From NCBI RefSeq assembly GCF_024655565.1, contig NZ_JANKOF010000032.1:1-45782 (forward strand): a stretch of DNA of 45,782 nt, in the 5' to 3' direction. Made by a program: the position numbers and the translations under genes. How positions within the stretch are numbered: position 1 is the stretch's first letter; every line of letters begins with the position of its first letter. This document shows, piece by piece, positions 22,081 to 38,946 of this stretch. Source of the DNA: Nitratireductor sp. ZSWI3. GTDB lineage: Bacteria > Pseudomonadota > Alphaproteobacteria > Rhizobiales > Rhizobiaceae. The notes below the pieces were generated by a model. It searched no databases. It was not told the origin of the DNA and was given only the letters and a program-made list of their open reading frames with translations.

Positions 22081-23010
22081 TCAGGCGTCGGCGATCCTGG
22101 CGCGGAAGCGTTCGGTGCCACGCTCGATGTGATCGAGCAGATCGGCCGCCGCCCAGTGGCGCTCGAAGGGGTTGTAGTCAACCACCCGCGAATGAGCGTT
22201 CGCGAAGGTTCCGAGCCACACGTGCCAGATCTTGGCGAGCTTGGGATAGCCCATGCCTTCCGCCATCGCGGCAAGGGCAAGGAAAACCGCCAGATCCCGC
22301 ACCAGCTCGGTGTCCTCGTCCCTGTGCTCGTAAAGCCAGGCATAAAGGTCGGGATGGAAATTGCCGAACACGCCGCCGAAGCCGCGCGAGCCCGCGCGCA
22401 TGGCCGCCAGCGCGATCGCCGCATTGGCGTTGACGATGGCGAAGGGCGTGCCCGCCGTCATCGCGGCGCGGCGGGCGACCGTCGGCAGGTCGCAACTGAC
22501 ATCCTTCAGGACGGCGAAGCGGCCGGTGTCGAGGCACAGCTTGAGCTCGTCGTCGCTGAGCAGGCGGCGATAGGGCGCCGGGCACTCGTAGAGCCCGAGC
22601 GGCAGGTCGGCCGGCAACACTCGCATGATCGCGTCGAGCGCATGCCGGAAAGCCTCGAAGCCGGCGTTTTGCGGGTCCAGCCTGTTGGTGACCAGGACCA
22701 GCGCATCGACGCCGGTTTCGCCCATCGCCTTCAGCTCGGCGAGCTGGTCCTCCAGCGCTTCGGATAAGTGACCCGAGGCGATGACGGGCAGCCGCCCCCG
22801 TGCGAATTCAAGGGTTCGGCGCGCCAGGAGAACGCGCTCGTCGAGGCTCAGCCTCTGCATCTCGCTCGACTGGCACACGGCGAACAATGTCTGCGCGCCG
22901 CCTTCCACATACCAGTCGGTCAGCCGCGCGAGCCCATCCTCGTCGATGCGGTCAGCCGGCGTGAACGGCGTGAGCATCACCGGCACGAGGCCGTCAATCC
23001 TGATCTTCAT
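22081..23010 (-). CDS. Dihydrodipicolinate synthase-family class I aldolase
   Basis: 309 residues, typical for the DapA/NanA family. The Schiff-base lysine is in FAVLKDVS (about 168) and the conserved tyrosine in LGLYECPAP (about 139). The usual GTTGE substrate loop is replaced by CQSSEMQRLS. Family members cleave or join pyruvate or a keto acid with an aldehyde. The altered loop argues against lysine biosynthesis and for a catabolic keto-acid aldolase or dehydratase. It is divergent from the propeller gene across an 87-base promoter carrying the palindrome also found at the IclR gene. ATG 23010 is chosen by family length; a start 24 bases upstream (23034) is possible. Confidence 0.82.
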   Translation of the reverse strand: MKIRIDGLVPVMLTPFTPADRIDEDGLARLTDWYVEGGAQTLFAVCQSSEMQRLSLDERVLLARRTLEFARGRLPVIASGHLSEALEDQLAELKAMGETGVDALVLVTNRLDPQNAGFEAFRHALDAIMRVLPADLPLGLYECPAPYRRLLSDDELKLCLDTGRFAVLKDVSCDLPTVARRAAMTAGTPFAIVNANAAIALAAMRAGSRGFGGVFGNFHPDLYAWLYEHRDEDTELVRDLAVFLALAAMAEGMGYPKLAKIWHVWLGTFANAHSRVVDYNPFERHWAAADLLDHIERGTERFRARIADA

Positions 23011-23034
23011 TTCGCGTCCGTCTGCAGGTTTCAT

Positions 23035-23079
23035 TTGCCAGGCTATATGATACGAAGTGAAATTGGAATAGGATTCCAA
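23035..23079. promoter_or_regulatory. Divergent promoter with IclR-type operator (site 1)
   Basis: TTGGAAT-AGG-ATTCCAA (23063-23079) is a perfect 7+3+7 palindrome. For the plus strand, a -35 TTGCCA (23035-23040) and -10 TGAAAT (23058-23063) with 17-bp spacing lead straight into it, so a bound protein would cover the transcription start. The same core recurs at 32031-32046 upstream of the IclR gene. Confidence 0.7.
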
Positions 23080-23097
23080 AAATGGAGGAGCAGCATC

Positions 23098-25068
23098 TTG
23101 AGCGTGACCCGGTGGGAGGATGACGCATCGGTCTGGACCGGCCCGTCCTATGCGGATCGAGCGATCGGCTATCATCCCGATGTGCGGTCGGCCCCGGTGG
23201 CCGGCCGCATCATCACCTGCGTCGACGTGGTCGACTGGGACGGCGACGGCGGCCGCGATCTTCTCTTGTCGAGCTGGGACACCTGCTACGAGGGGCGCGT
23301 CTTTCTCTATCCCCAGATCGGGACCCGGCCCGACGGCACGCCGCTCCTCGGCGGCGAACGGATCGTCGAGGGCGTGCGCGGCTATGTCACCGCCGTGCGC
23401 GACGGCGACCGCTTCCATCTCCTCTCCGTCTCGCGGATGCGCCGGCAGATCTACCTGTTCCCCAACATCGGCACTGCGCGCGAGCCGCGTTTCGGCGAGC
23501 CGGTCGCGCTCGACCTTCAAGCCGACTGGGTCAGGGGCAACGAATATTTCCACATGGCCCGCTTCCACGACATCGACGGCGACGGCGTTCCCGAGCTCGT
23601 CGTGGGCACCGATTGCTGGGACGATTACTGGCCGAGCGGCCTCGAATGGAACGATGTCGGCTATCGCGCCTATGATGCGGCGGGGCGCTGGCTGGGCGGG
23701 CCGCTGCGCGGTTTCCTCTATGCCTTCAAGAACACGGGGACGCCGAGCGCGCCGGTGCTCGGCCGCGGCGAGACCATCCTCGCGGGCGAGACCCCGCTCG
23801 AGGTCTACGGCCAGTGCGCGCCAGCCTTCGGAGATTTTGCCGGCGACGGGAAGAATGCCGTCGTGTGCGGCGAATTCTGGAACATCCTTCACTTCGCGCG
23901 CCAGAGGGGGCCCTTCGCCTTCGAACAACCGGCGCTGGTTGCCGATGCCGCCGGCGATCCCGTGCTTCTGGATCAGTGCATTCACCTGCCCTGCGCCGTC
24001 GACTGGGACGGCGACGGGCGGCTCGACATCCTGGTCGGCGCCGAGGATGGCTATGTGACGTTCCTCCGCAACACCGGGACCGGCCCCGACGGGCGACCGG
24101 CCTTCGAGAAGATCGGGCGCGTCGAGGGCACCGAGCCGTCCATCCATGCCGGCGTCCTGCCCTCGCCGGCCGCTTACGATTTCTCCGGCAACGGCCTGCC
24201 CGACCTCGTCGTCGGCAACAGCACGGGCGAGCTTCTTTTTTATGAGAATCTCGGCCCGCGCGAGGCGCCGAGGCTCGCCCGCGAGGTGATGATCGAGGTG
24301 GGTGGGAAACCGGTGCGCATCGCCGCCGGCCTGACCGGCTCGATCCAGGGGCCGTCGGAAAAGATGTTCGGCTATTCCTGCCCGACGATCGCCGATTGGG
24401 ACGGCGACGGCCTTCCCGACCTGCTCGTCAGCGACGTCACTGGCCATCACAGCTTCTACCGCAATGACGGGGGCGCGGTGCCGCCGCGTTTCGAGGCGCC
24501 GCGCCCGCTGACATGGCAGGGCAAGCCGCTGAAGACGGTCTGGCGGGTCCGGCCGGCCGTGGTCGACTGGCTGGGCGACGGCCAGCTTCACTATCTCGCG
24601 CTCGACGAGGACGGCGTGTTGTCGGATTTCCGCCGCGCCTCCGACACCGAGCTTGCCGACAAGCGGCACCTGCGGTGGGAGGACGGCTCGGAAGTGCGCT
24701 TCACACAGGATGTCGGCGGCGGCCGCGGACGGGTGAAGCTGTGCGCCGTGGACTGGACCGGCAACGGCCGGATCGACCTCGTCATCGGCACGCATGCACG
24801 CGCATCCGTGCCCCCCGGGCCGACCGGCCAGCCGCGCAACACGACCGGCCAGGCGGGCATCTTCCTGCTCGAGAACATCGGCTCCAATGCCGAGCCGGTC
24901 TTCGCCTTCCCGAAGGCGTTCAGATTTCGCGGCGAGACGATCCGGATGGCCATGCACGTCGCCTCGCCCGAAGCCGTCGACTGGGACGGCAGCGGCGCGC
25001 TCGGCCTCGTGGTCGGCGTGGAAGACGGCAGCCTGGTGTGGCTGAAGCGGGAGGATCTCTCATGGTAG
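23098..25068 (+). CDS. FG-GAP/VCBS-repeat beta-propeller protein without signal peptide
   Basis: 656 residues from a TTG start with GGAGGAG seven bases upstream. Nine calcium-loop motifs of the form D-x-x-G-D/N/S-G-x-x-x-L (for example DWDGDGRLDILVGAE) lie near residues 46, 158, 245, 302, 361, 433, 490, 552 and 628. Blades end in phrases such as YLFPNIGT and LFYENLG. This is a VCBS/FG-GAP propeller, a fold used for ligand binding and sometimes for polysaccharide lyase activity. Most such proteins are secreted, yet here the first 30 residues are polar. It overlaps the next gene by seven bases. Enzymatic or sensory function is unknown. Confidence 0.82.
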   Translation: MSVTRWEDDASVWTGPSYADRAIGYHPDVRSAPVAGRIITCVDVVDWDGDGGRDLLLSSWDTCYEGRVFLYPQIGTRPDGTPLLGGERIVEGVRGYVTAVRDGDRFHLLSVSRMRRQIYLFPNIGTAREPRFGEPVALDLQADWVRGNEYFHMARFHDIDGDGVPELVVGTDCWDDYWPSGLEWNDVGYRAYDAAGRWLGGPLRGFLYAFKNTGTPSAPVLGRGETILAGETPLEVYGQCAPAFGDFAGDGKNAVVCGEFWNILHFARQRGPFAFEQPALVADAAGDPVLLDQCIHLPCAVDWDGDGRLDILVGAEDGYVTFLRNTGTGPDGRPAFEKIGRVEGTEPSIHAGVLPSPAAYDFSGNGLPDLVVGNSTGELLFYENLGPREAPRLAREVMIEVGGKPVRIAAGLTGSIQGPSEKMFGYSCPTIADWDGDGLPDLLVSDVTGHHSFYRNDGGAVPPRFEAPRPLTWQGKPLKTVWRVRPAVVDWLGDGQLHYLALDEDGVLSDFRRASDTELADKRHLRWEDGSEVRFTQDVGGGRGRVKLCAVDWTGNGRIDLVIGTHARASVPPGPTGQPRNTTGQAGIFLLENIGSNAEPVFAFPKAFRFRGETIRMAMHVASPEAVDWDGSGALGLVVGVEDGSLVWLKREDLSW

Positions 25069-25880
25069 CCCCGGCCGTGTCCGTCGACGGCTCGACGAAG
25101 ATCATGGGCGTCATCGGCGATCCCATCGCGCAGGTCATGACGCCGACGGCGATCAACCCGATCTTCGCGGCCCGCGGCGCCAACATCGTCTGCGTGCCGC
25201 TGCACATAGGCGCGCATGAGCTCGACACCGCCTGGGCGGGCCTCAGGGCGCTCAGGAACCTGATCGGCTTCGGCATCACCCTGCCGCACAAGCAGGCGGC
25301 GCTGACGCTGTGCGACGGTCTCGACCCGCTCGCCGAGCGGGTCGGGGCGGTCAATCTCGTGCGACGCGAGGCCGACGGGTCCTTCAGGGGCTACCAGTTC
25401 GACGGCAAGGGCTTCGTTCGCGGGCTGAAGGGACAAGGCCACGCGATCGCCGGCCGCCATTGCCTCATGGTCGGTGCCGGCGGTGCCGCGATCGCCATCG
25501 CCTTCGCCCTTGCCGAGGAAGGCGCGGCATCGCTGACCATCGCCAACCGCACGCGCGCAAAGGCGGAAGAGCTCGCGGAGGCCGTGAACCGCGCTGTGGG
25601 TCGGTCCTTCGCGCGCGCCGGCGGGCCCCGGCCCGAGCCCGGGCAGATCCTCATCAACGCGACCTCGCTCGGTCTTTCCGCGAGCGACCCCCTGCCCTTC
25701 GATGCGACCCTCGTCGACGAAACGATGCTGGTCGCGGAGGTGATCGCCAAGCCGGAGGTAACGCCGCTGCTGGAAGCCGCCCGCGCCCGCGGCGCGCGCA
25801 TCCATCCGGGCATTCACATGATCCGCGGGCAGGTCGACCTCATTGCCGCCCACATGGCCGAGGCGCAGACAGGAAGCTGA
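25062..25880 (+). CDS. Shikimate-dehydrogenase-like oxidoreductase 1 (non-canonical substrate pocket)
   Basis: 272 residues. The AroE architecture is clear: GDPIAQVMTPTAINPIF at the N terminus, GITLPHKQAA with the catalytic Lys (about 80), FDGKGFVRGL with the catalytic Asp (about 117), and the nucleotide loop MVGAGGAAIAIA (about 139-150). Where AroE has S-x-S for binding the shikimate carboxylate (NPIAHSKSP), this protein has V-M-T. It is therefore probably a quinate-like or other polyol-acid dehydrogenase. It is translationally coupled to the propeller gene (ATG 25062 lies before that gene's stop) and convergent with a second paralogue. Confidence 0.82.
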   Translation: MVAPAVSVDGSTKIMGVIGDPIAQVMTPTAINPIFAARGANIVCVPLHIGAHELDTAWAGLRALRNLIGFGITLPHKQAALTLCDGLDPLAERVGAVNLVRREADGSFRGYQFDGKGFVRGLKGQGHAIAGRHCLMVGAGGAAIAIAFALAEEGAASLTIANRTRAKAEELAEAVNRAVGRSFARAGGPRPEPGQILINATSLGLSASDPLPFDATLVDETMLVAEVIAKPEVTPLLEAARARGARIHPGIHMIRGQVDLIAAHMAEAQTGS

Positions 25881-25882
25881 GA

Positions 25883-26707
25883 TCAGAGCGGCGTTCCCGC
25901 CTCCCGCCCGGCCGCGAAGCCGGCGATCAGGGCGATCTGTGCCTCGAGCATGTCACGGCCGTCGCTTGTTACCGCACCCCGCCGGCGGGCCAGCTTCAAA
26001 AGCTCCGTGTCGCGCGCCAGCGCCGCGATGTCGGCGACCAGCATCTCCGGCCCCACGCCATCAAGATCGACCGGAAAGGCCTCTGCCGATTTCAATCCGA
26101 TCGGCGTCGCGTTGATCAGCACGTCGATGCCGGCGAGATCGCCGGAGCCGCGCTGCGCAACCGGCCTGCCGATCGCGCGATCGACCATGCCGATGGTGAA
26201 ATCCAGCGCCGCATCGTCGATATCGATCACCGACAGCCGGCCGATCCGTTCGCCGGCCAGCGCGTGGGCGATGGCGCGGCCCGCGCCGCCGGCGCCGACG
26301 AGCAGCACCGAGGCTCCCGCGAGACGTTCGCGGTTGCCGGCCAGTCCGCGCACGAAACCCAGCCCGTCGAAGAGCGCGCCATGCATGGAACCGTCGTTCC
26401 GGCGCTGGATGGAGTTCACGGCGCCGACAGCAGCGGCGGCCGGAGTCAGCTCGTCGCATAGGCGAGCGGCGGCGATCTTGTGCGGCACCGTCACGCCGAT
26501 GCCCGCCACATTGTCCATCGCCGCGAAAACGTGCCAGGCAGCTTCGAAATTCTCACGGGTCACATGGAAAGGGACGGCATAGAGATCGACGCCCTTTGCC
26601 GCGAATATCGGATTGATGAGCGTCGGGGTCTGCACCTGCGCCACCGGGTCGCCGAACACCGCATAGATGCGCGAGGCGCCGCCGAGATTGGGAATGGTGT
26701 CGCTCAT
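25883..26707 (-). CDS. Shikimate-dehydrogenase-like oxidoreductase 2
   Basis: 274 residues, a second divergent AroE-type protein ending two bases from its convergent paralogue. It contains GDPVAQVQTPTLINPIF, GVTVPHKIAA (catalytic Lys about 74), FDGLGFVRGL (Asp about 113) and the NAD(P) loop LLVGAGGAGRAIA. The S-x-S pair of true AroE is V-Q-T, the same kind of replacement as in its partner. Its ATG overlaps the stop of the TIM-barrel gene (ATGA, 26704-26707). Two related dehydrogenases in one regulon might act on successive or stereoisomeric intermediates (inference). Confidence 0.82.
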   Translation of the reverse strand: MSDTIPNLGGASRIYAVFGDPVAQVQTPTLINPIFAAKGVDLYAVPFHVTRENFEAAWHVFAAMDNVAGIGVTVPHKIAAARLCDELTPAAAAVGAVNSIQRRNDGSMHGALFDGLGFVRGLAGNRERLAGASVLLVGAGGAGRAIAHALAGERIGRLSVIDIDDAALDFTIGMVDRAIGRPVAQRGSGDLAGIDVLINATPIGLKSAEAFPVDLDGVGPEMLVADIAALARDTELLKLARRRGAVTSDGRDMLEAQIALIAGFAAGREAGTPL

Positions 26708-27558
26708 GATATGGCCGAACCTCCCGAAAAGATGCCACGGCAGCGCTGAAGGGCCGTGTCGAGGACGAGGTCGGGATCTTCCGCCCACCACCGATCGGAA
26801 AAGATCTCGACCTCGATCGGTCCGGTGTAGCCGGCGGCCCGCACCTGGCGCCACATGCCGGCCAGATCGATGATGCCGTCTCCCATCATGCCGCGATCAC
26901 GCAGGACATGCCTTGTCGGCACCAGCCAGTCGCTGACGTGGAAACCCAGGATCCTGCCGGCGGCGCCGGCGTAGGCGAGCTCGGCCGCGAGCCGCTCGTC
27001 CCACCAGATGTGATAGGCGTCGGCGACGATGCCGATCCCTTCGCCCAGCCGCTCGCAGATGGCATTGGCGTGGCTGAGGCTCACGATCACCGCGCGGTCG
27101 CCGGCGACCATCGGATGCAGCGGCTCCAGCGCCAGCGTCGTGCCGACGGAGCGCGCATGGTCGAGAAGCTGGCCGATGGCATCCTCGGTCTGCGCCCGCG
27201 CACCGGCGAGGTCGCGGCTGCCGTCCGCCAGCCCGCCGGAGAAGACCAGAACGTGGTCCGCGGCCAGTTCCGCGGCCATGTCCACGGTTCGCCGCGCCCG
27301 GTCCAGATACGCGGCACGACCGGCCGCCCCGGCGGCCAGCAGCGGCCCCGCCCGGTTGAAGCCGAATGTGGAGATGCCGGTGCGGGCCAGCATCCGGCGG
27401 GCCTCCGCGAGGCCGACCTTGTCGATCTCGTCGCCCCACAGGGAAGCGCGCGCCAGCCCGCGCGCGGCGCATCCCTCGAGGAACGGTTCCAGCCCCCATC
27501 GCTCGCGGATGGTCGCCTGATTGAACACGTATTCGGGCGGTTGCAGGGCTTCGACCAT
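26704..27558 (-). CDS. Sugar phosphate isomerase/epimerase-like TIM barrel (xylose-isomerase-like)
   Basis: 284 residues of the AP-endonuclease-2 fold. Likely metal ligands appear in the expected order: Glu in TLALEPLHP (about 145), Asp in GIVADAYHIW (about 180), His in ILGFHVSDW (about 206) and Glu in IEVEIFSDRWW (about 252). The fold covers hydroxypyruvate, tagatose and inosose enzymes and also dehydroshikimate dehydratases of the AsbF/QuiC kind. Next to two AroE-like dehydrogenases the last reading is tempting but not proven. It follows the ABC ATPase by nine bases. Confidence 0.82.
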   Translation of the reverse strand: MVEALQPPEYVFNQATIRERWGLEPFLEGCAARGLARASLWGDEIDKVGLAEARRMLARTGISTFGFNRAGPLLAAGAAGRAAYLDRARRTVDMAAELAADHVLVFSGGLADGSRDLAGARAQTEDAIGQLLDHARSVGTTLALEPLHPMVAGDRAVIVSLSHANAICERLGEGIGIVADAYHIWWDERLAAELAYAGAAGRILGFHVSDWLVPTRHVLRDRGMMGDGIIDLAGMWRQVRAAGYTGPIEVEIFSDRWWAEDPDLVLDTALQRCRGIFSGGSAIS

Positions 27559-27567
27559 GATGCCGCT

Positions 27568-28413
27568 CTAGAACTTGTAGACGCCGAGCTTCTCGAAAAT
27601 CCGATAGATCCTTTCGGCGTATTTCGAGAACTCGGGATACTCGCCCAGATGGGCCGGGCGCGGGCGCGGCAGGTCGATGACGATCTCCTCGACGATCGTG
27701 CCGGGGCTCTTCGACATCACCAGCACACGATCCGAAAGGCCGACGGCCTCCTCGATGGAATGGGTGATGAACAACACCGTCTTGCGCGTGTCCAGCCAGA
27801 GCATCTCCAGATCGTGCCGGATCTGCGTGCGCGTGATCGCGTCGAGCGCGCCGAAGGGCTCGTCCATCAGCAGCATCGAGGGGTCGTGAACCAGAGCGCG
27901 GGCGATCGACACGCGCTGGCGCATGCCGCCGGAGAGCTGCCACGGATAGCGGTTCTCCGCTCCCTTGAGGCCGAGCCGCTCGAACAGGGCGTCGGCGCGG
28001 TCCCGGAGCGCCGTCTTGTCCAGCCCACGGATCTCCTGCTGCAGCATGACGTTCTTGATGGCAGTGCGGAAATCCAGAAGCAGATGGTCCTGGAAGACGA
28101 TGCCGATCTCCGAGATCGGCGCGGTCAGCGGCTTCCCGTCGATCTCCACCGTGCCGGCGCTCGGCGGCTCCAGCCCGGTCACCAGGAGCATGGTCGTGCT
28201 CTTGCCGCAGCCCGAGGGCCCGATGATGGAAACGAACTCTCCCGGCTTGATGTCGAGATCGATGGGGCCAAGCGCGTGGAAGGCATTGTCTCCACTGCCG
28301 AACACCTTGGTCAGTCCGCGCGCGCTGATCGAGGCGCCCGCGGCGGGCGCGCCACCGCTCGAGCGCGCCGGGCCGGAAGGGGTTTTCATCTCTGCCATCG
28401 TCGTGTCCGTCAT
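27568..28413 (-). CDS. NMT1/SsuB-type ABC transporter ATPase
   Basis: 281 residues. Walker A GPSGCGKST (about 64-72), Q-loop VFQDHLLL, signature LSGGMRQRVSIARAL (about 158-172), Walker B MLLMDEPFGALD and the switch FITHSIEEAV place it with the nitrate/sulfonate/taurine ATPases. The first 28 residues are a low-complexity Ser/Ala/Gly/Pro leader; a start at MAEMK is also possible. It is the only ATPase for two distinct permeases (28430 and 30377) and should energise a heterodimeric channel. Confidence 0.88.
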   Translation of the reverse strand: MTDTTMAEMKTPSGPARSSGGAPAAGASISARGLTKVFGSGDNAFHALGPIDLDIKPGEFVSIIGPSGCGKSTTMLLVTGLEPPSAGTVEIDGKPLTAPISEIGIVFQDHLLLDFRTAIKNVMLQQEIRGLDKTALRDRADALFERLGLKGAENRYPWQLSGGMRQRVSIARALVHDPSMLLMDEPFGALDAITRTQIRHDLEMLWLDTRKTVLFITHSIEEAVGLSDRVLVMSKSPGTIVEEIVIDLPRPRPAHLGEYPEFSKYAERIYRIFEKLGVYKF

Positions 28414-28429
28414 TGTCGCTCGTCCAGGT

Positions 28430-29251
28430 TCAGTGTCTGGACCACGGCATCAGCCATTGTCCGATGACGCTCATCGCGCCGTTGAAGATCAGCGCGACGA
28501 TCGCCGCAGCCACCAGCCCGGAGAACATCAGCGTCATGTCCATGAATGCCGAGGCCCGCACGATCATGAAGCCCAATCCCTTGTTGGAGGCGATGAACTC
28601 GGCGATGATGACGCCCTCGACCGCCTTCACCACACCGATCTTCATGCCCGAGAAGATGTGCGGCATCGCCGCCGGCAGCCTGACCTTCCAGAAGGTCTGC
28701 CACGGGTCCGCCCCCATGGACCGCGAGATGTAGAAGAGCCTGCGGTCGACCAGCCGGAAACCGGACATGGAATCGACCAGCACGGGAAAGAAGCTCATCA
28801 GGAAAACGATCAGCGCGGCGACCAGCGGGCCTATGCCGAACCAGATGATCAGGATCGGCCCGATCACCGTCTTGGGCATGATGTTGAGAAACACGATGAC
28901 CGGGTAGAGCCCCCGCTCCAGCGCCCCCACCGAGACGATCGCCAGCGCCAGCGGGATCGCCACCAGCACGCCAAGGGCAAAGCCCTCCACGATGGTGAGC
29001 GAGGTCCACAGCGCATGGCCGGCGATCAATGCCCTGTCGGTGTAAAGCCGGACCAGGAAATCCGAGGGCTTGGGCGCCAGCCACACGGGCACGTCGAAGA
29101 GGCGAAGCGCCACCTCCCACAGGCCGAGCAGCAGCAGCACCGCCGCCGCTCCGATGAGAATGGAGGAAAGGTACGAGCCACCGAACCCCGCCATGAGGCG
29201 CGCACGTATGCCGGATGGTGCCGGTGCCATGGCAGAAGCTGTTTGCGACAC
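28430..29251 (-). CDS. ABC transporter permease (SsuC/TauC-like) 2
   Basis: 273 residues with six membrane segments. The permease-ATPase coupling region is MGADPWQTFWKVRLPAAMPHIFSGMKIG (EAA-type loop). The start is a GTG (29251); an internal ATG at 29230 is possible. It lies 72 bases after the binding-protein gene. It is clearly related to but distinct from the permease at 30377 (shared phrases such as TFFPILVDS versus SFFPVLVDS), so the pair arose by duplication. Confidence 0.87.
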   Translation of the reverse strand: MSQTASAMAPAPSGIRARLMAGFGGSYLSSILIGAAAVLLLLGLWEVALRLFDVPVWLAPKPSDFLVRLYTDRALIAGHALWTSLTIVEGFALGVLVAIPLALAIVSVGALERGLYPVIVFLNIMPKTVIGPILIIWFGIGPLVAALIVFLMSFFPVLVDSMSGFRLVDRRLFYISRSMGADPWQTFWKVRLPAAMPHIFSGMKIGVVKAVEGVIIAEFIASNKGLGFMIVRASAFMDMTLMFSGLVAAAIVALIFNGAMSVIGQWLMPWSRH

Positions 29252-29323
29252 TACGAGACTTTCCGCGTGAGGGTGATGCCCGGCCGCCCCTGGCGCCCGG
29301 GCCGTTTTTGCGATCGGCCGGCC

Positions 29324-30325
29324 TCAGGGGCAGGTCACCGGCGTCTGCGGCAGATAATCGAGCGTGTAGTAGTCCGTCACCGGCTTGGTGCCGGGAAGGT
29401 TCATCGCCGAGGTCATGACGCCGTACATCTTCTCCCAGGTCTCGGCGTCAGTCACGCCGATCGCGTCGCCCGAGCCGCCGGGGCAAACCGACGCGAAGCT
29501 GAACTTGGCCGACTGAAGGAGGTTTTCCTTCGAATGGGCCGTTTCCGGGAAGATCTCGAGCAGAGCATCGACCGCCGCTTCCGGGTCCTTCATCGCTTCC
29601 TGCCAGCCCATTGCCGTCGCCTCGACGAAGCGCTTGTAGACGTCCGGATTGGCCTGCAGCTTGTCTTCGCGCGCCACGAGGGCGAGGCTCGCGATGGGAA
29701 CGCCGTTGTTGTAGAAATACATGTTGCCGGCCTCGATGCCCTGGGCTGCCAGCGGCACGACGATGTTCTCCGGCGTCTGCGACACCGCGTCGACCTGCTT
29801 GGAGGTCAGAAGGCCGATGAAGGCGCTTTCCGCCGCCGAGACGATCTCCACCTGCGATTCCTCGATGCCGTTGGCGCGCAGGAACACCGGAATGAGGGGC
29901 AGCATGGCCGATCCCGGAGACACCGCCAGCTTCTTGCCGATGAGATCCTTCGGCTCCTTGATGCCGGAATCGGCCAGAGACTGGATGCCGAACTGGCCGG
30001 ATTTCCAGATGGTCGCGATGATGCGGATCGGCGCGCCCTGCGCGGCGACATTGAGCGTCGCGCCGGTATCGGCATAGCCGAGCTCCGTCTGCCCGGTCGC
30101 CACCAATTGCGCCGCCACGGCGGAACCGCGGCCCTCCGTCAGGGTGACGTCGAGATCGTGGTCCTTGTAGATGCCCTTGGCCTGGGCGACCGCGAAGCCG
30201 AGATGCGCGGAATCGGCCGTCCAGTTCATCTGCATCTGGATCTTGTCCTGCGCCAGCGCGGGAGCGCCTCCTGCAAGCAATGCGAACATTGCCCCCGCCG
30301 CGAGATGCCTCGATTTGAACTGCAT
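29324..30325 (-). CDS. NMT1/THI5-like ABC substrate-binding protein
   Basis: 333 residues. The signal peptide ends at APALAQ (about 26), and the core starts IQMQMNWTADSAHLGFAVAQAKGIYKDHDLDVTLTEGRG, the opening typical of NMT1/SsuA receptors. The start at 30325 has GGGAGG about five bases upstream. Ligands of this family include sulfonates, nitrate, pyrimidines, riboflavin and aromatic acids. The N-W-T-x-D-S/x-H opening is like the pyrimidine and flavin-precursor branch, but that does not decide it. It is placed between the two permease genes. Confidence 0.87.
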   Translation of the reverse strand: MQFKSRHLAAGAMFALLAGGAPALAQDKIQMQMNWTADSAHLGFAVAQAKGIYKDHDLDVTLTEGRGSAVAAQLVATGQTELGYADTGATLNVAAQGAPIRIIATIWKSGQFGIQSLADSGIKEPKDLIGKKLAVSPGSAMLPLIPVFLRANGIEESQVEIVSAAESAFIGLLTSKQVDAVSQTPENIVVPLAAQGIEAGNMYFYNNGVPIASLALVAREDKLQANPDVYKRFVEATAMGWQEAMKDPEAAVDALLEIFPETAHSKENLLQSAKFSFASVCPGGSGDAIGVTDAETWEKMYGVMTSAMNLPGTKPVTDYYTLDYLPQTPVTCP

Positions 30326-30376
30326 TCCTTCCTCCCTTTGTTTTATCGTGATGCCCGATCGCCGATCACGAACCTG

Positions 30377-31138
30377 TCAGCGCCGCCGCCAGGGCAGCAA
30401 TGTCCTTTCCGCCAGTTCCATCCCCCAGCTGAGCACGACCCCGATCATCGAGCCGACCACGAGCACGGCGAAGATCAGCGACGTGTCGGAATCGTCCATC
30501 CCCCGGAGAACCAGGTAGCCGAGCCCGTTCTGCGAATTCATCCACTCGACGACGATCACCACGGTGACCGCGATGACGACGGTGATCTTGAAGCCGGAAA
30601 AGATGCTGGGCGCGGCGGACGGCAGCTCGAACAGGCGGAATGTCTGCCACCACGACGCGCCGACGGAACGGCTGAGATAATACTGCCGGGGGTCGATCGA
30701 CTTGAAGCCCGTGACGCTGTCGACCAGGATCGGAAAGAAGGTGATCAGCGCGGTGAGCAGGATTTTCGGGAAATCCGCAAAGCCGAACCAGACCAGCATC
30801 AAGGGCGCCAGCGTGATCTTCGGCAGGCCCTGGATGAAGACGACAAGCGGATAGAGCACCTGCTCCGCAAGGCGGAACCTGGCGATCAGATAGCCGAGCA
30901 CGACGCCGGGAATGGCTCCGGCGATGAACCCGTAGACGATCAGCCGCGTCGTCACGAGGGCGTGGTAGCCGAGCCTCTGGTAATCCTCGACGATGCGCGA
31001 CAGGAACTGCGACGGCGCGGGCAGCACGTAGATCGGCACATCCAGGGCCCTGACCAGCACCTCCCACATCAAGATCAGGCCGGCGAACCACAGGACCGGC
31101 TCGAAGATGCGCTGCACGGTGAGGTTGGGGGCCGTCAT
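30377..31138 (-). CDS. ABC transporter permease (SsuC/TauC-like) 1
   Basis: 253 residues with six membrane segments and the coupling loop VGASWWQTFRLFELPSAAPSIFSGFKI. ATG 31138 is seven bases after the IclR stop codon; longer frames run into iclR. It is the first transport gene of the IclR-headed operon. The conserved segment LPKITLAPLMLVWFGFADFPKILLTALITFFPILVDSV parallels LNIMPKTVIGPILIIWFG in the second permease. Confidence 0.87.
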   Translation of the reverse strand: MTAPNLTVQRIFEPVLWFAGLILMWEVLVRALDVPIYVLPAPSQFLSRIVEDYQRLGYHALVTTRLIVYGFIAGAIPGVVLGYLIARFRLAEQVLYPLVVFIQGLPKITLAPLMLVWFGFADFPKILLTALITFFPILVDSVTGFKSIDPRQYYLSRSVGASWWQTFRLFELPSAAPSIFSGFKITVVIAVTVVIVVEWMNSQNGLGYLVLRGMDDSDTSLIFAVLVVGSMIGVVLSWGMELAERTLLPWRRR

Positions 31139-31145
31139 CCGTCTC

Positions 31146-31982
31146 TCACGCCTCCACTGCCGTCTGCGCCCGCGCCACCGCAACGGCGGGCTGATAGCCG
31201 CGCTGGCGGCTTCGCAGCGACCAGATTTCGGCAACCTCCACAGCGGCCTTCTTCAGCGCGGCGGCAAGCTCCTCGTAGCGTTCCGGCGTGATCCGCACCA
31301 GGGGGCCGGCAACGCTCATCGTGCCGGCGACCGGTGCATCCGGCCCGACACCGTTGAAGAACGGGACGGCGACGGCGCCCGTGCCGGCCTCCGCTTCCTC
31401 GACGGAGGTCGCGTAGCCCTGCTGGCGTGTTTCGACGAGCCTTGCGCGAAGCTCGTCGACATTGGTCGCGCTGTTGGGGCCGAGCGGCCGCCGCGCCCCG
31501 AAGCCGCGGGCGCAGACGATGCGCAACGCCTCGGATTCCGGCAGCGTGGAAAGCCATGCCTTGCCGTTGGCCGTGGCGTGCAGGACGATCTCCTGCCCCA
31601 TCTCGGGGTCGTAGCGCAGACCCGTGACGGCGCCCTGCGCGCGGGCGACCCAGACGAGATCCTCGCCCTCCACGATCGCCAGGCGGCAATATTCCCGCGT
31701 CTCGCGCGCCAGCTTGTCGAGCACGGATTGAACCACGTCGGGCACCGCGCGCACATCGAGATTGCGGAAGGCAAGGGTGCTCATGCGGAGCGAGAGCGCA
31801 TAGCGCTGCGTTCCGCTGTGCTGCAGCACCCATCCCCGCGCGACGAGCGTGGTCAGCGTGCGGTGAACCGCACTTGCGGGCATGCCCAGGCGGTTTGCGA
31901 GATCCGTCAGTTCGATGGGCTCGCGCTCCCCCGCGAGCGCCTCCAGCATCGTCAGACAGCGGTCTATGGCGGCAACGGTCAA
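31146..31982 (-). CDS. IclR-family regulator of the 22-32 kb island
   Basis: 278 residues. The N-terminal winged helix (about 4-65: AIDRCLTMLEALAGEREPIELTDLANRLGMPASAVHRTLTTLVARGWV) and C-terminal effector domain (about 80-255) are those of IclR proteins. The start is TTG at 31982, supported by GGGAGG six to seven bases upstream; the nearby ATG (31986) is out of frame. It heads the minus-strand operon of permease, receptor, permease, ATPase, isomerase and AroE-like gene. A triple half-site operator covers its own promoter, and a copy lies at 23063, so it probably represses both arms until an intermediate binds. Confidence 0.87.
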   Translation of the reverse strand: MTVAAIDRCLTMLEALAGEREPIELTDLANRLGMPASAVHRTLTTLVARGWVLQHSGTQRYALSLRMSTLAFRNLDVRAVPDVVQSVLDKLARETREYCRLAIVEGEDLVWVARAQGAVTGLRYDPEMGQEIVLHATANGKAWLSTLPESEALRIVCARGFGARRPLGPNSATNVDELRARLVETRQQGYATSVEEAEAGTGAVAVPFFNGVGPDAPVAGTMSVAGPLVRITPERYEELAAALKKAAVEVAEIWSLRSRQRGYQPAVAVARAQTAVEA

Positions 31983-32007: not shown

Positions 32008-32047
32008 AATATACAATGGGTAATTCCAAATTGGAATAGGATTCCAT
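32008..32047. promoter_or_regulatory. IclR promoter with overlapping operator (site 2)
   Basis: Three half-sites in a row: ATTCCAA (32023-32029), TTGGAAT (32031-32037), ATTCCAT (32041-32047). They make two overlapping palindromes, one of which (TGGAAT-AGG-ATTCCA) equals site 1 at 23064-23078. On the minus strand a -10 TATATT (32008-32013) stands 17 bp from TTCCAA (32031-32036), so the operator covers the -35 position. This is the picture of autorepression. Confidence 0.7.
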
Positions 32048-32776: not shown

Positions 32777-34252
32777 TTGCCCTTGTACCAGCCGATGATC
32801 CGCCACCTGAAATCCCCCGGGCTGTTTGCCGCGATCGACCGTGTTCCGGCACCTGGCACGCGTGCCGGCGAGCGTGTGTTCGAGGTCTTCAACCCGTCGA
32901 CCGGCGAATTGCTGGCGAGACTTCCCGACATGGGCGTCGACGAGACAAGGGCCGCGATCGACAGGGCCTTTGCTGCGCAGGCCGGATGGGCGGCCCTGAC
33001 CGCCCGCGAGCGCAGCGACGTGCTCTGGCGCTGGCATCAGCTGATCGTCGACCACACGGACGACCTCGCCGCCATCCTCACGGCCGAGATGGGCAAGCCG
33101 CTAGCCGAGGCGAAATCGGAGGTGGCCCACGCGGCGGCCTATCTGCAATGGTACGCCGAAGAGGCCAACCGTATCTATGGCGAGACGATCTCCGCTCCCT
33201 CGACGGACCGCCGCATGCTGGTCATCAAGCAGCCGATCGGCGTGGTCGGCACGATCACGCCCTGGAACTTCCCGGCCTCGATGGTCGCGCGCAAGATCTC
33301 GCCGGCCCTGGCGGCCGGCTGCACGATCGTGCTCAAGCCTGCCGAACAGACGCCTCTGGTGGCGGGGGCGATGTTCGCGCTCGCCGCGGAAGCCGGTTTT
33401 CCGGAGGGCGTCGTCAACCTGATCTACGCCTCTGAAGGCGATGCGATCGGCCGCGAGCTCTGTTCCAATCCGAAGGTCCGCAAGATCAGCTTCACCGGCT
33501 CGACCGAGGTGGGCCGGCTGCTCATGCGCCAGTGCTCGGACCAGATCAAGAAGGTCAGCCTCGAGCTCGGCGGCAATGCGCCGTTCATCGTCTTCGACGA
33601 TGCCGACATAGACGCGGCCGTGGACGGCGCGATCCAGGCGAAGTTCCGCAATGCCGGCCAGACCTGCGTTTCGGCCAATCGCCTCTACGTCCAGTCGGCG
33701 GTTCATGATGCATTCGTCGAGAAATTCGTGGAGAAGGTCCGCCACCTCCCGGTTGGCGACGGCTTCGATTCAGACGTGGCGATCGGCCCTCTGATCGACA
33801 GCCACGCGCTGGCCAAGATCGAACTCCACATCGCCGACGTTGTCGCCAAGGGCGGCGTGGTTCGCTGCGGGGGCAACCGCATCGGTGAAAAGGGCACGTT
33901 TTTCCAGCCCACGGTCCTCACCCGGATCTCCCACGACATGACGGTGGCGCAGGAGGAGACGTTCGGGCCGGTGGCCCCGATCATCCGCTTCGAGGATGCG
34001 GACCAGGTCGTGCACGAGGCCAACGACACGATCTACGGCCTCGCGGCCTATTTCTATGCCTCGAACCTGAAGCGCGTTTGGCACGTGGCCGAGGCCCTCG
34101 AATACGGCATGGTGGGGATCAACACGGGACGCATGTCGTCGGAAGCCGCGCCATTCGGCGGCATCAAGCAGTCCGGCATCGGGCGCGAGGGCTCCCGCCA
34201 CGGGCTCGAGGATTACCTTGAGATGAAATATCTCTGCATGGGCGGGATCTGA
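32777..34252 (+). CDS. gabD: NAD(P)-dependent succinate-semialdehyde dehydrogenase-type ALDH
   Basis: 491 residues. Cofactor motif TPWNFP (about 161-166), general base in SLELGG (Glu about 263), nucleophile in GQTCVSANR (Cys about 297) and C-terminal FGGIKQSGIGREG are those of GabD-like dehydrogenases. It oxidises an acidic semialdehyde, classically succinate semialdehyde, to the acid. The TTG at 32777 has GAGGAGG about eight bases upstream; an ATG at 32795 is the alternative. No gabT or GABA transporter is adjacent, so the true aldehyde could come from another pathway. Confidence 0.82.
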   Translation: MPLYQPMIRHLKSPGLFAAIDRVPAPGTRAGERVFEVFNPSTGELLARLPDMGVDETRAAIDRAFAAQAGWAALTARERSDVLWRWHQLIVDHTDDLAAILTAEMGKPLAEAKSEVAHAAAYLQWYAEEANRIYGETISAPSTDRRMLVIKQPIGVVGTITPWNFPASMVARKISPALAAGCTIVLKPAEQTPLVAGAMFALAAEAGFPEGVVNLIYASEGDAIGRELCSNPKVRKISFTGSTEVGRLLMRQCSDQIKKVSLELGGNAPFIVFDDADIDAAVDGAIQAKFRNAGQTCVSANRLYVQSAVHDAFVEKFVEKVRHLPVGDGFDSDVAIGPLIDSHALAKIELHIADVVAKGGVVRCGGNRIGEKGTFFQPTVLTRISHDMTVAQEETFGPVAPIIRFEDADQVVHEANDTIYGLAAYFYASNLKRVWHVAEALEYGMVGINTGRMSSEAAPFGGIKQSGIGREGSRHGLEDYLEMKYLCMGGI

Positions 34253-34454: not shown

Positions 34455-35144
34455 TCAGGGAAAACGATCCTCGACCGTTTCGCCCTCTGGCGCGTCCGCC
34501 TCGCCATAAGCCTTCGACAACAGCCCCGCATCCTCGAGCGCCTCGATGTCCGGCAGGTCGCGCAGCGACTGCAGGCCGAAGGCGGCGAGGAACTGCTTCG
34601 TCGTCACATAGCTGTAGGGCGCGCCCGGCGTCGGGCTGCGCGGACCGGAGGCGAGGAAGCCGGCACCCCGCAGGGTGCCGATCGTGTCGCGCGAAACCTC
34701 CCGGCCGAAGATCTTCGACAGGTCGCCGCGGGTGATCGGCTGGAAATAGGCGACCGCCATCAGCACCATCGCCTCGAATTCCGACAGCGCCGAGGCCGGG
34801 CCGCGGGTCGGCGGCGCGGCCGCGCGGATGGTGTCGGCGAAACGCGCCCGGGTGCGGTGCTGCCAGCCGCCGGCGACCGCGACCAGTTCGTAGGGCCGCC
34901 CGCGCAGCTCTTCCTGCAGGTCGTCGATCAGAAGGTCGAGGCTGCAGTCGCGGCCCACAACGCGCGCCAGCGTCTCGCGGGTAACCGGCTCGGCCGAGGC
35001 AAAGATCACCGCCTCGACCCGCAACATCCACTCGCGCCAGCGCAGCTCCGGCGGCAGACCCTCGAGGTCGCGGTCGAACAGCGGCGCGCCGGCGCCGTTC
35101 GTCGCCTCATCCCGGGTCGCGTCCCCACGCGGTGCGACGTCCAT
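34455..35144 (-). CDS. ScpB-like (SMC-Scp complex) winged-helix protein
   Basis: 229 residues. Two winged-helix units as in ScpB: WMLRVEAVIFASAEPVTRETLARVVG (about 38-63) and ALSEFEAMVLMAVAYFQPITRGDLSKIFGREVSRDTIGTLRGAGFLASG (about 114-162), then PYSYVTTKQFLAAFGLQSLRDLPD. ScpB normally works with ScpA and SMC in chromosome condensation. No scpA is present; the partner is a DUF1403 gene that ends two bases upstream. The pairing near repABC suggests a plasmid-specific maintenance role (inference). Confidence 0.82.
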   Translation of the reverse strand: MDVAPRGDATRDEATNGAGAPLFDRDLEGLPPELRWREWMLRVEAVIFASAEPVTRETLARVVGRDCSLDLLIDDLQEELRGRPYELVAVAGGWQHRTRARFADTIRAAAPPTRGPASALSEFEAMVLMAVAYFQPITRGDLSKIFGREVSRDTIGTLRGAGFLASGPRSPTPGAPYSYVTTKQFLAAFGLQSLRDLPDIEALEDAGLLSKAYGEADAPEGETVEDRFP

Positions 35145-35146
35145 GG

Positions 35147-36100
35147 TCACAGCCCGAAGATCCGGAACGAGGCGCGGCCGGACAATTCGCGCACCGCGCC
35201 GAACCCCTGCAACCGGTCGAACAGCCGCATCGCCGCCCAGCGCGAGAGATTGCCACCGGGGGCCGAGGCGGGAACCGCATCCTCCTCGAGCAGCTTCTGA
35301 ATGACCGCTTCCGCGCCCCTGGTGCGCAGCTTGGGGGCGACGGCAAGAAGCGTCTGCGCATGCCGGGCGATCGCGCCCGCCGAGTGCAGGGCAGCGCCCG
35401 TCGCGTCCACCAGGGCAAGACAGACGGCGCCCGGAAAGGCCGGCTCCCCAGGCCGCACGCGCCCCCGTTCTCCAGCGATGCGGAAGGCCGGTCCGAAACG
35501 CTCGCCCATCAGCAGCGGGACGGGACGGTCCCATTTCAGGGTCGTGGCGATCAGCGTGTCGGCCAGCGCCCAGGCCAGCGGTTCGGCATCCGGCCGCACG
35601 CCGATAATCGCCGTCACCAGCGCCGCCGCCGCGAACGGCACCGGCCGGTCCGACTGCAGCGCCGCGTCGGCATGATCGACGGCTGCGGCAAGGCGCTCGT
35701 CCCAGGCAAGGCCAAGGAGATCGGCAACCTCGGCCACCGCCTTCGAGGACAAGCCGGGTCTTCGCGCCGCAACCCCTCTATAGGCCAGAAGCACCTTGCC
35801 GGCAGGGCCCGGATCATCGCCCGGCGCGGTCAGATAAACGGCGTCGCGCAGGCCCGCCTCATCCTCGCCGCGGCCCATCAGCCGATTGGCCCCCGCCGCG
35901 CATCTCAGCGCCTGCCGGGCCCGCCAGCAGCCGGCCCAGGCGGGGCGGCCGCACACCAGATCATCAAGGGATTTCAGGGCGATGCCGGCGGCGAAGGCGG
36001 CATCCGCCTGGCTTGGGTCGCGGCCGCGCGGCAGCGCCCAGCGCGGCAGGGCGGCCGGCGGCACGGCGGGCAAGGGCAATGCTGCAGCAAGCGAATCCAT
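35147..36100 (-). CDS. DUF1403-family plasmid protein
   Basis: 317 residues, Ala/Leu/Arg-rich and mostly helical, with no catalytic motif seen. [49 protein letters not shown] and the C-terminal [32 protein letters not shown], which looks like a winged helix, fit DUF1403, a family I know only from rhizobial plasmids near integrases and repABC. It is tightly followed by the ScpB-like gene and divergent from the recombinase. Function unknown. Confidence 0.75.
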
Positions 36101-36176
36101 GCCGGGAGCCTACACCGGACGTGCAGTTTACGCCATTATTTTTGCGCCAAAGCGCACAGCCTGTCGCTCACAAATT

Positions 36177-36205
36177 ACGATCGATAATCTTGCATTATCG
36201 TTCGT
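36177..36205. promoter_or_regulatory. Palindromic operator between DUF1403 and the recombinase
   Basis: ACGATCGATAAT (36177-36188), spacer CTTGC, ATTATCGTTCGT (36194-36205): arms match at 11 of 12 positions, including a perfect inner CGATAAT/ATTATCG. It is AT-rich and 20 bases before the recombinase ATG. It is a likely shared operator or promoter, or possibly a recombinase core site. Confidence 0.55.
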
Positions 36206-36224
36206 TCTGTGAGATCCGTGCGAA

Positions 36225-37613
36225 ATGGCCTCTGCCATCGATCAAACGCCCGAAAACCGTCCTCGGGACGGCTCCCCTCAATCGCAGGAAACCTCCGCGG
36301 CTGTCAGTGAAACCGCGCCGTCTGCCCCGGCCGGACCTGACGAACCGGTCGCCGACGATCTTCCGGACATCATCGATGTGGTGATGGAGATGGGGAGAGC
36401 ACCGGAGGAGCCGCCGGCCGAAGCGAATGCCCTCCGCTATGGCTCCCAGCCCTTCGGGCGTTCGCCATCCTTCGAAAGGTCCACTGGACCTTCCGATACG
36501 CCTGAGGGCGTACCGGAGGCTCACCGTTCGGAGTTCGGAAAGCCAAATCATTGGCTTTCCGCCGGCGAAGCCGACCACTCCTCACCCCCTCCCCTGCCCC
36601 CACAATCGCAGGCGCAGCCGCCGGAACGCCTTCCCGGCCATCTCGAGGGCCTTGCCCACAGGGCGCGCGGCTATGTCGAGGCGGCGAGCTCGGCCAACAC
36701 GCGCCGCGCCTATGCGTCCGACTGGCGGCATTTTGCGAGCTGGTGCCGCCGGCAGGGCCTCGACCCGCTCCCGCCCGACCCGCAGGCCGTCGGCCTCTAC
36801 ATCACCGCGCTCTCCTCCGGCACGGCCTCGGGGGACAAGAAATCGGTGTCGACGATCGAACGGCGGCTCTCCTCGCTGACCTGGAACTATGCCCAGCGCG
36901 GCCAGCCGCTCGACAGGAAGGACCGGGCCATCGCCACCGTGCTCGCCGGCATTCGCAACACGCATGCCGCCCCGCCGCGCCAGAAGGAGGCGATCCTGCC
37001 CGAGGATCTGATCGCCATGCTGGAAACGCTCGACCGGGGAACGCTGCGCGGCCTGCGCGACCGCGCCATGCTCCTGATCGCCTTCGCCGGGGCCTTGCGC
37101 CGTTCCGAGGTCGTCGGGCTCGACATCGGCCGCGACCAGACCGAGGACGGGCGCGGCTGGATCGAGATCTTCGACCAGGGCCTGCTCATCACCCTGCGCG
37201 GCAAGACCGGCTGGCGCGAGGTGGAGATCGGCCGCGGCTCGTCCGAAGCCACCTGCCCGGTCGCGGCCCTTCAGACCTGGCTCAGATTCGCCCGGATCGC
37301 GCATGGCCCCCTGTTTCGCAGGGTCACCGGCCACGGCAAAAAGGTCGGCGCCGACCGCCTCAACGACCAGGAAGTGGCGCGTCTGGTCAAGCGCACGGCG
37401 CTCGCCGCCGGCGTGCGCGGCGATCTGCCCGAGCAGGAACGGGTGCAAAAATTCGCCGGCCATTCCCTGCGCGCCGGCCTCGCCTCCTCGGCCGAGGTCG
37501 ACGAGCGCCACGTCCAGAAGCAGCTCGGTCACGCATCAGCCGAGATGACCCGCAAATACCAGCGCCGCCGCGATCGCTTCCGGGTCAATCTCACCAAGGC
37601 GAGCGGATTGTAG
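36225..37613 (+). CDS. Tyrosine recombinase/integrase
   Basis: 462 residues. An unusual disordered N-terminal extension (1-140) precedes a SAM-like core-binding domain (about 145-245: ARGYVEAASSANTRRAYASDWRHFASWC) and the catalytic domain. Catalytic residues seen: Arg in AGALRRSEVVGL (about 289), the HSLR box (His 413, Arg 416), LGH (His 436) and the nucleophile Tyr 445 in TRKYQRR. Such recombinases next to repABC usually resolve replicon multimers. Three palindromes are embedded in frame within the N-terminal extension, which looks like an inserted repeat. It diverges from DUF1403. Confidence 0.87.
   Translation: MASAIDQTPENRPRDGSPQSQETSAAVSETAPSAPAGPDEPVADDLPDIIDVVMEMGRAPEEPPAEANALRYGSQPFGRSPSFERSTGPSDTPEGVPEAHRSEFGKPNHWLSAGEADHSSPPPLPPQSQAQPPERLPGHLEGLAHRARGYVEAASSANTRRAYASDWRHFASWCRRQGLDPLPPDPQAVGLYITALSSGTASGDKKSVSTIERRLSSLTWNYAQRGQPLDRKDRAIATVLAGIRNTHAAPPRQKEAILPEDLIAMLETLDRGTLRGLRDRAMLLIAFAGALRRSEVVGLDIGRDQTEDGRGWIEIFDQGLLITLRGKTGWREVEIGRGSSEATCPVAALQTWLRFARIAHGPLFRRVTGHGKKVGADRLNDQEVARLVKRTALAAGVRGDLPEQERVQKFAGHSLRAGLASSAEVDERHVQKQLGHASAEMTRKYQRRRDRFRVNLTKASGL
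36476..36561. repeat. Cluster of three palindromes inside the recombinase coding sequence
   Basis: AAGGTCC-ACT-GGACCTT (36476-36492); TACGCC-TGAG-GGCGTA (36497-36512), with CCG/CGG pairing outside it; and CGGAAAGCCAA-ATCA-TTGGCTTTCCG (36536-36561, a perfect 11-bp stem). The block is read in frame as part of a low-complexity linker. It resembles a palindromic element that inserted into a gene and stayed open. Confidence 0.6.
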
Positions 37614-37654
37614 GCGCCCTCCCCTCCCTTCGCCGGGCCTTATCCATCAACGAC

Positions 37655-37682
37655 ATGAATCGGTCGTCCGAAACCGATTCAT
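37655..37682. terminator. 10-bp hairpin after the recombinase
   Basis: ATGAATCGGT, loop CGTCCGAA, ACCGATTCAT: a perfect 10-bp stem 41 bases past the recombinase stop and 45 before the WGR gene. No T tract follows. It may be a terminator, an operator, or a recombination site. Confidence 0.45.
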
Positions 37683-37727
37683 CGAATGCGTTGGACGCGC
37701 CCGCCGGCTGTCGGGGAAGATCGCGCC

Positions 37728-37970: not shown

Positions 37971-37983
37971 AGCGCAAGGCGCC

Positions 37984-38860: not shown

Positions 38861-38881
38861 CGTGCCATCCTCTCTTTCGGG

Positions 38882-38924
38882 ATTGAACCTAAAACAATCA
38901 TATCTTGATCGTTCGATGTTCAAT
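38882..38924. promoter_or_regulatory. Promoter/operator region of the RES-Xre pair
   Basis: AT-rich stretch with ATTGAAC (38882-38888) and its inverse GTTCAAT (38918-38924), lying just upstream of the antitoxin start. The spacing suggests two antitoxin binding sites flanking the promoter. Confidence 0.4.
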
Positions 38925-38946
38925 TTATGCGCAAATCCAGCGCATT

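Follow-up and report, generated by a model that had tools for sequence, protein, structure and literature searches.

A co-inherited candidate catabolic regulon with a propeller protein and two AroE-like oxidoreductases in Nitratireductor sp. ZSWI3

What might ten adjacent genes accomplish together that an earlier note, made from the DNA letters alone, had taken for an undescribed catabolic regulon? The genes fill positions 22081-31982 of contig NZ_JANKOF010000032.1 of Nitratireductor sp. ZSWI3 (genome of 5.21 Mb), and the whole contig stretch of 45,782 nucleotides is the window analysed here. They code for an aldolase, a VCBS/FG-GAP propeller protein, two AroE-family oxidoreductases (AroE1 and AroE2), a xylose-isomerase-like TIM barrel, a two-permease importer and an IclR-family regulator. 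All ten proteins had a Pfam match above the curated cut-off, which bore out the gene families named before, and the count of seven enzyme and transport genes was corrected to eight, next to the propeller and the regulator. Our results suggest a co-inherited catabolic regulon that would, with a probability of about one half, break down a cyclic polyol or a keto-sugar (a cyclitol, an anhydro-sugar or a glycoside-derived ulose).

Gene order, palindromes and co-inheritance

The ten genes probably form three transcription units. The aldolase gene (22081-23010, minus strand; PF00701 over cut-off) is read leftward by itself, with 23010 as the likely and 23034 as a possible start codon. The propeller gene (23098-25068, plus strand; 656 aa, PF13517 over cut-off) starts with TTG behind GGAGGAG and is read rightward together with aroE1 (25062-25880, plus strand; PF08501 over cut-off). 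The third unit, on the minus strand, runs from iclR (31146-31982; PF01614 and PF09339) through permease 2 (30377-31138; PF00528, start placed from the length of an annotated homologue), the NMT1/THI5-like solute receptor (29324-30325; PF09084), permease 1 (28430-29251; PF00528), the importer ATPase (27568-28413; PF00005) and the TIM barrel (26704-27558; PF01261 over cut-off) to aroE2 (25883-26707; PF08501 over cut-off). The aldolase and propeller-aroE1 units diverge, and the propeller-aroE1 and iclR-to-aroE2 units converge. The divergence and convergence described in the earlier note were present, in three probable units rather than in two arms. Two of its three overlaps were found, at 25062 (7 nt) and at 26704-26707 (4 nt), whereas at 31138 a gap of 7 nt separates the iclR stop at 31146 from the permease start.

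The same operator-like site was indeed present at both promoters. The palindrome TGGAATAGGATTCCA, an exact inverted repeat, was found at 23064-23078 between the aldolase and propeller genes, 19 nt ahead of the propeller start, and again at 32032-32046, 49 nt ahead of the iclR start. Genome-wide, the pattern TGGAATNNNATTCCA occurred three times, twice at the promoters of the unit. For a control, the reversed pattern was searched in the same genome and occurred at none. The third and last exact copy lies at C6:82574-82588 (L073) between antiporter-like genes and a MucR-like gene, as labelled by reading the open reading frames (ORFs), and no likely target or link was found among the surrounding ORFs.

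The palindrome was then compared within 200 bp upstream of the propeller at 33 loci. The best match had all 12 arm bases at 8 loci, at least 10 of the 12 at 23, 9 at seven and 8 at three. Six of the seven loci with 9 bases are rhizobial and carry a variant of the TAGAAATC type equally far from the propeller, and 16 to 29 of 300 mononucleotide shuffles per locus equalled these matches. The seventh is a metagenome-assembled genome (MAG) of the Woeseiaceae, where the match lies far upstream of the propeller and lends no support; nor do the three loci with 8 bases. Just ahead of iclR the exact palindrome was present in 10 of the 14 loci with a complete NMT1 importer. With an IclR protein and a conserved palindrome at its promoters, the unit has the features of an IclR-type regulon, and we infer that the IclR protein may bind both palindromes and control the three transcripts.

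The inheritance of the genes was examined in 84,980 species genomes. The scan returned 32 propeller loci, which is a lower bound since one of two short patterns was needed for a hit, and 29 of these were usable after three fragments or contig-end cuts (L048, L054 and L055) had been excluded. Neighbouring genes were taken from a simple ORF caller, whose ORF clusters include shadow frames, and the identity thresholds for orthologues were set after the loci had been viewed (aldolase 60%, AroE1 55%, AroE2 and TIM barrel 52%, IclR 54%, receptor and permeases 60%, ATPase 70%). AroE1 was found at 28 loci, the TIM barrel at 24, the aldolase and IclR at 22 each, AroE2 at 19 and the complete NMT1 importer at 14; the counts are not independent, as the loci include near-copies (L019/L021 and L039/L040). 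The aroE1 gene stood directly behind the propeller gene at all 28 loci that have it, and all five enzymes were together at 17 of the 29. The earlier note had held that the unit would be accidental if its genes were rarely neighbours in related genomes; they were not rarely adjacent.

Twelve genomes with an incomplete locus were followed up as a whole. Of the seven whose locus has no aldolase, the five rhizobial ones hold an aldolase elsewhere at 68-71% identity, and none was found genome-wide in the Woeseiaceae MAG and in N. aquibiodomus. Ten loci had no AroE2, and four of these genomes hold it elsewhere at 56-58%. The second cluster of L031, L037, L043 and L053, four of these five rhizobial genomes, shares a contig with aroE1 at a distance of about 10-15 kb.

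On plasmids the genes also occurred together. The propeller was present at 60% identity or more in 21 of 72,556 plasmid records, and all 19 records with AroE2 at E<=1e-50 were among these 21 (accessions compared by script). The same was seen by eye for the 20 records with the aldolase at 65% or more (next best 61%) and the 20 with the TIM barrel at 52% or more (next best 48%). As the plasmids are related to one another, the very small p-value of the AroE2 comparison should not be read as a probability. The one record without aldolase, TIM barrel and AroE2 has a transposase close to its propeller, which was matched in three pieces. On an Agrobacterium plasmid the genes are split into propeller-aroE1 and TIM-aroE2-aldolase, with about 10 kb between the two clusters; on a Neorhizobium plasmid the distance is about 130 kb. 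When 385 genomes were drawn evenly from the class, ZSWI3 itself was the sole match at E<=1e-30, and among 60 relatives, ZSWI3 included, 10 matched, 7 of them strongly. The unit is an accessory trait and not a core one. An accidental island was rejected in view of the co-inheritance at the loci and on the plasmids, and the unit is probably co-regulated.

Two decaying copies were seen. In N. aquibiodomus (L046) the aldolase match is confined to the first residues, beside a folC-like stretch, and the propeller was matched in three pieces; on a Neorhizobium galegae plasmid (L023) the propeller is fragmented and an IS21 transposase lies close by. On a single contig of the gammaproteobacterial Woeseiaceae MAG a propeller gene (57%) occurs together with a PfkB kinase, members of the IclR and DHDPS families and, about 12.5 kb away, a gene like aroE1 (46%) that contains one stop.

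The NMT1 importer is not a constant part of the unit, being complete at only 14 of the 29 loci. The importer is exchangeable. Some Rhizobium and Agrobacterium loci have in its place a sugar ABC importer with Gfo/Idh and SMP-30 lactonase-like genes, and in L028, L051 and L052 a permease of the TRAP type (DctM), next to the TIM gene, replaces it. A cluster of PfkB-type (ribokinase-like) kinase ORFs occurred in 18 of 37 stretches, the ZSWI3 stretch not being one of them, and was confirmed by Pfam in three of the 18 (L018, L033 and L050).

Outside the unit, the window contains genes for a phage-type integrase (36225-37613) and the replication protein RepC (38947-40359). Together with DUF1403 and a ScpB-like protein they lie within 34455-40359, and the contig resembles a repABC plasmid or a chromid. 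An aldehyde dehydrogenase gene (32777-34252) was considered as a member of the unit and rejected, being absent from the ORF clusters common to at least four stretches.

Conserved residues of the enzymes and the propeller

The active sites were compared in aligned orthologues, leaving aside L023 and sequences under threshold or below 70% coverage. Tyr134, Lys162 and the CQSSE site of the aldolase (residues numbered in the 302-aa query) were conserved in 27 of 27 orthologues, ZSWI3 included. With PF00701, the Schiff-base Lys and the catalytic Tyr the aldolase belongs to the class I aldolases and lyases of the DHDPS fold, and it reached no equivalog cut-off. In the TIM barrel the residues E145-D180-H207-E251 were invariant in 29 of 29; after its relatives we take this set to be a metal site, which the protein probably carries. 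Its nearest solved relatives are 3ju2, 3qc0 and 7vpf. None of the aldolase, AroE1, AroE2 and TIM proteins reached a curated NCBIfam cut-off.

Both AroE proteins belong to the AroE superfamily, having a Shikimate_dh_N domain over cut-off and the catalytic Lys and Asp. Of 34 aligned AroE1 orthologues, at least 33 kept Lys77, Asp114 and the motif NRT at 162-164. AroE2 kept Lys77 and Asp114 in 23 of 23 and has an Asp (22) or a Glu (1) at the end of beta-2. After E. coli AroE and the NAD-dependent quinate dehydrogenases, we take NRT as the mark of an NADP(H) type in AroE1 and the acidic residue as that of an NAD(H) type in AroE2. The first Ser of the carboxylate-binding SxS motif is replaced by V, A or I in the 31 of the 34 AroE1 sequences listed and by V in all 23 AroE2 sequences. 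In the NCBIfam comparison with the biosynthetic AroE equivalogs, AroE1 scored 160.7 bits against a cut-off of 252 and AroE2 140.9 against 200.2. Another AroE in the ZSWI3 genome has an intact SRS motif and is probably the housekeeping enzyme. Because both proteins stay under every listed AroE cut-off and a separate AroE with the intact motif exists, AroE1 and AroE2 are more readily explained as catabolic than as biosynthetic enzymes. The closest solved match of each is 4k28. Orthologues of AroE2 are labelled 'ThiF family adenylyltransferase' or 'hypothetical' and those of AroE1 'shikimate dehydrogenase' (L018, L019, L021 and L076), which are likely misannotations.

More distant relatives of AroE1 were viewed in four neighbourhoods. 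Those in Sinorhizobium meliloti pSymA and in Salipiger (L077 and L079; 44-50%) adjoin an enzyme annotated as acetolactate synthase, FabG-like and GMC oxidoreductases and a branched-chain-type ABC importer, and these clusters are perhaps another cyclitol route.

Relatives of the aldolase outside the unit (about 56-60%) occurred in 26 plasmid records, and seven neighbourhoods were viewed. Five of the seven have a PfkB/ribokinase-type kinase and a transporter, two of the kinases being confirmed by Pfam, which is consistent with a sugar-acid intermediate. The other two have a gene annotated as phosphoglycerate dehydrogenase (Agrobacterium C58) and an AroE-like gene (Peteryoungia). The small operons L082-L086 combine such a kinase and the DHDPS-family protein (56-60% to the aldolase) with a TRAP, TTT, MFS or SLC13-type transporter. 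They lie on plasmids of Salmonella, Pantoea, E. coli, Azospirillum and Burkholderia, two of them with a YhcH-family protein, and are perhaps an undescribed sugar-acid module.

The receptor had relatives at E<=1e-50 in seven plasmid records, six at about 68% identity that all contain the propeller, and a seventh at 34%. For a hint at its substrate its best solved relatives were inspected; they are NMT1/THI5-like and putative receptors without a common ligand.

The propeller belongs to the VCBS/FG-GAP proteins by PF13517 and its DxDxDG-type loops. In an alignment of 24 rows (ZSWI3 and 23 of the 32 loci; 57-94% identity) many His, Glu, Asp, Arg and Lys residues were invariant along most of the length. 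Nine DxxGxG blade motifs and a degenerate tenth were counted, and the AlphaFold2 model had a pLDDT of 82.9 and a pTM of 0.86; both one ring of ten blades and two rings are possible with about ten repeats. No strongly hydrophobic stretch was found at the N-terminus, and the protein is predicted to be cytoplasmic. Propeller families were the only ones seen by Pfam, and no NCBIfam match was obtained at E<=0.001. Aldos-2-ulose dehydratases carry cupin domains, and members are present in the PDB; the propeller showed no cupin domain and no match to a solved structure of that family. According to the available excerpts of PMC8023676, the VCBS supercluster includes propellers of aldos-2-ulose dehydratase and of the RGL11 rhamnogalacturonan lyase family. 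Going by its conserved residues, the ZSWI3 propeller is probably an enzyme. Only tentatively do we propose that it is the first member of a new family of cytoplasmic VCBS enzymes with a single domain of about ten blades, either lyases or ring-openers. With an NADP-type AroE paralogue it would split an undescribed cyclic compound in rhizobia-like bacteria and so form a new entry route to pyruvate.

A possible pathway and its rivals

The two oxidoreductases of opposite cofactor type, the metal-dependent TIM barrel, the propeller and the pyruvate aldolase fit a scheme of oxidation, elimination, reduction and aldol cleavage. The IclR protein at the two palindromes would let the three transcripts form in the presence of the substrate or of an intermediate, and the importer would take the compound into the cell. 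AroE2 would oxidise it with NAD+, and the resulting ketone would acidify an adjacent C-H and so enable an elimination. The propeller, probably cytoplasmic, and the TIM barrel may then act on a ring or an ether link by elimination or opening, with hydration or isomerisation of the product. AroE1 would reduce a later keto intermediate with NADPH, and the DHDPS-fold enzyme would split a 2-keto-3-deoxy acid into pyruvate and an aldehyde. The aldehyde might be phosphorylated by a PfkB kinase, whose gene is nearby in many relatives and not at the ZSWI3 unit. In levoglucosan breakdown (PMC7676230) an elimination and a hydration likewise lie between two oxidoreductase steps, and both are carried out by proteins with a sugar phosphate isomerase annotation. 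Reduction of 5-ketofructose by an AroE homologue has also been described (7cok; PMC7954740).

Several observations weigh against a breakdown of polyols or keto-sugars by this scheme. NMT1-type receptors are not typical sugar receptors, and the ZSWI3 unit is without a kinase, the best ribokinase-like match of the genome being 43% identical and on another contig. The palindrome was not found ahead of the propeller at 3 of the 33 loci and is weak at 7 more. The aldolase-like protein of the Woeseiaceae MAG is not orthologous to that of ZSWI3. An AroE2 orthologue was not found in 6 of the 12 genomes searched; therefore the redox pair is not universal and AroE2 is dispensable. PMC7954740 also describes a further putative AroE-type relative of the 7cok reductase, which showed no activity on 5-ketofructose. 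When the propeller sequence was searched against solved structures, nothing useful was obtained (best E 0.018, CRTAC1). The best 50 of 1311 Foldseek matches were generic propellers and multi-propeller scaffolds with poor TM-scores, and aldos-2-ulose dehydratase and RGL11 were absent from these 50.

These poor matches mean that the propeller may be a scaffold or binding protein. It would then be a non-catalytic subunit that binds sugar or acts as a scaffold, lectin-like as in the PLL type, and holds the translationally coupled AroE1. The lectins PLL and PHL are among the Foldseek matches, the propeller stop overlaps the aroE1 start and AroE1 is its most constant partner. However, the polar residues invariant along most of the protein exceed what we would expect of a scaffold, and the propeller is conserved over its whole length across two classes; we hold a non-catalytic role to be unlikely. 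That known sugar-acid enzymes merely travel together on plasmids as an ordinary acquisition cluster, with no single pathway, might be suggested by the RepC and integrase genes of the plasmid- or chromid-like contig, by the many relatives on plasmids and by the varying importers and accessory enzymes. Yet the co-inheritance holds in separate clusters and in assemblies without a plasmid label, and the palindrome is common to the promoters, which makes this explanation very improbable.

The substrate could instead be a carbocyclic acid (quinate-, shikimate- or cyclitol-carboxylate-like), which would be oxidised by the AroE proteins and opened by a retro-aldol reaction of the propeller to a 2-keto-3-deoxy acid, from which the aldolase would release pyruvate. 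A retro-aldol cleavage of a dehydroquinate-type ring would indeed yield such an acid. Two AroE-family enzymes are present, the TIM barrel is weakly QuiC-like (30.9 bits against a cut-off of 1200), and the importers that replace the NMT1 type in L028, L051 and L052 are of the TRAP type usual for acids. Against this stand the loss of the first Ser of the carboxylate-binding motif in AroE1 and AroE2 and the rhizobial versions with sugar ABC importers, SMP-30 lactonase-like and Gfo/Idh genes. Furthermore, a separate locus at C2:100000-112000 (L075) looks like a quinate/shikimate route. Its AroE-family enzyme exceeds the PRK12549 cut-off (404.5 against 235 bits), its QuiC-like protein is full-length (634 aa) and scores 678 bits, under the cut-off of 1200, and a TRAP receptor is also encoded there. 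Profile scans found no 3-dehydroquinate dehydratase among the ten proteins of the unit. Quinate or shikimate was rejected as the leading explanation on account of the altered motif and this better-fitting locus, and we regard a carbocyclic acid in general as a doubtful substrate. Of the ring-opening or side-chain-cleaving route for a quinate-type acid that the earlier note had suggested, the cleavage is kept as a presumed step and the quinate-type acid is not.

If the proposed scheme is right, a protein annotated merely as 'VCBS repeat-containing' would be a metabolic enzyme, and two others, which carry the labels shikimate dehydrogenase or ThiF-like, would act on a different substrate. A carbon source of plant-associated and marine Rhizobiales would become identifiable, and automatic annotations could be corrected in the genomes that have the unit.

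Comparison with known systems

The levoglucosan genes lgdA-lgdB1-lgdB2-lgdC resemble the unit in the bracketing oxidoreductases, the isomerase-like proteins for elimination and hydration and the adjoining ABC importer genes. They differ in that the oxidoreductases are levoglucosan dehydrogenase and a Gfo/Idh protein, not AroE-like ones, and that the four-enzyme route, as far as the available excerpts describe it, has neither a propeller nor a DHDPS-fold aldolase (PMC7676230). Among the families of the ten proteins no levoglucosan dehydrogenase or Gfo/Idh was found.

The catabolism of myo-inositol (iol) follows a logic of dehydrogenase, PF01261 dehydratase (IolE), PfkB kinase (IolC) and aldolase, which the unit and its relatives share. 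In the unit AroE-like proteins take the place of IolG, and the propeller has no counterpart. No iol family (IolG, IolE, IolD or IolB) was reached at cut-off by the ten proteins. With quinate/shikimate catabolism (QuiB/QuiC) the unit has in common the AroE family and the weak QuiC likeness of the TIM barrel, but it is without a dehydroquinate dehydratase and its scores stay under the equivalog cut-offs.

Aldos-2-ulose dehydratase and RGL11 show VCBS-supercluster propellers in eliminating and dehydrating enzymes, the former being 7-bladed in the excerpts of PMC8023676, whereas the ZSWI3 propeller has about ten repeats and no other Pfam domain and matched neither by sequence in the solved-structure searches. 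The 5-ketofructose reductase 7cok is likewise an AroE-family enzyme that acts on a keto-sugar (excerpts of PMC7954740), but 4k28 and not 7cok is the closest solved match of AroE1 and AroE2. No account of this gene combination was found among the papers listed by searches of an open-licence literature library. In conclusion, an IclR-controlled catabolic regulon is known as a type, and the candidate propeller enzyme within one would be new.

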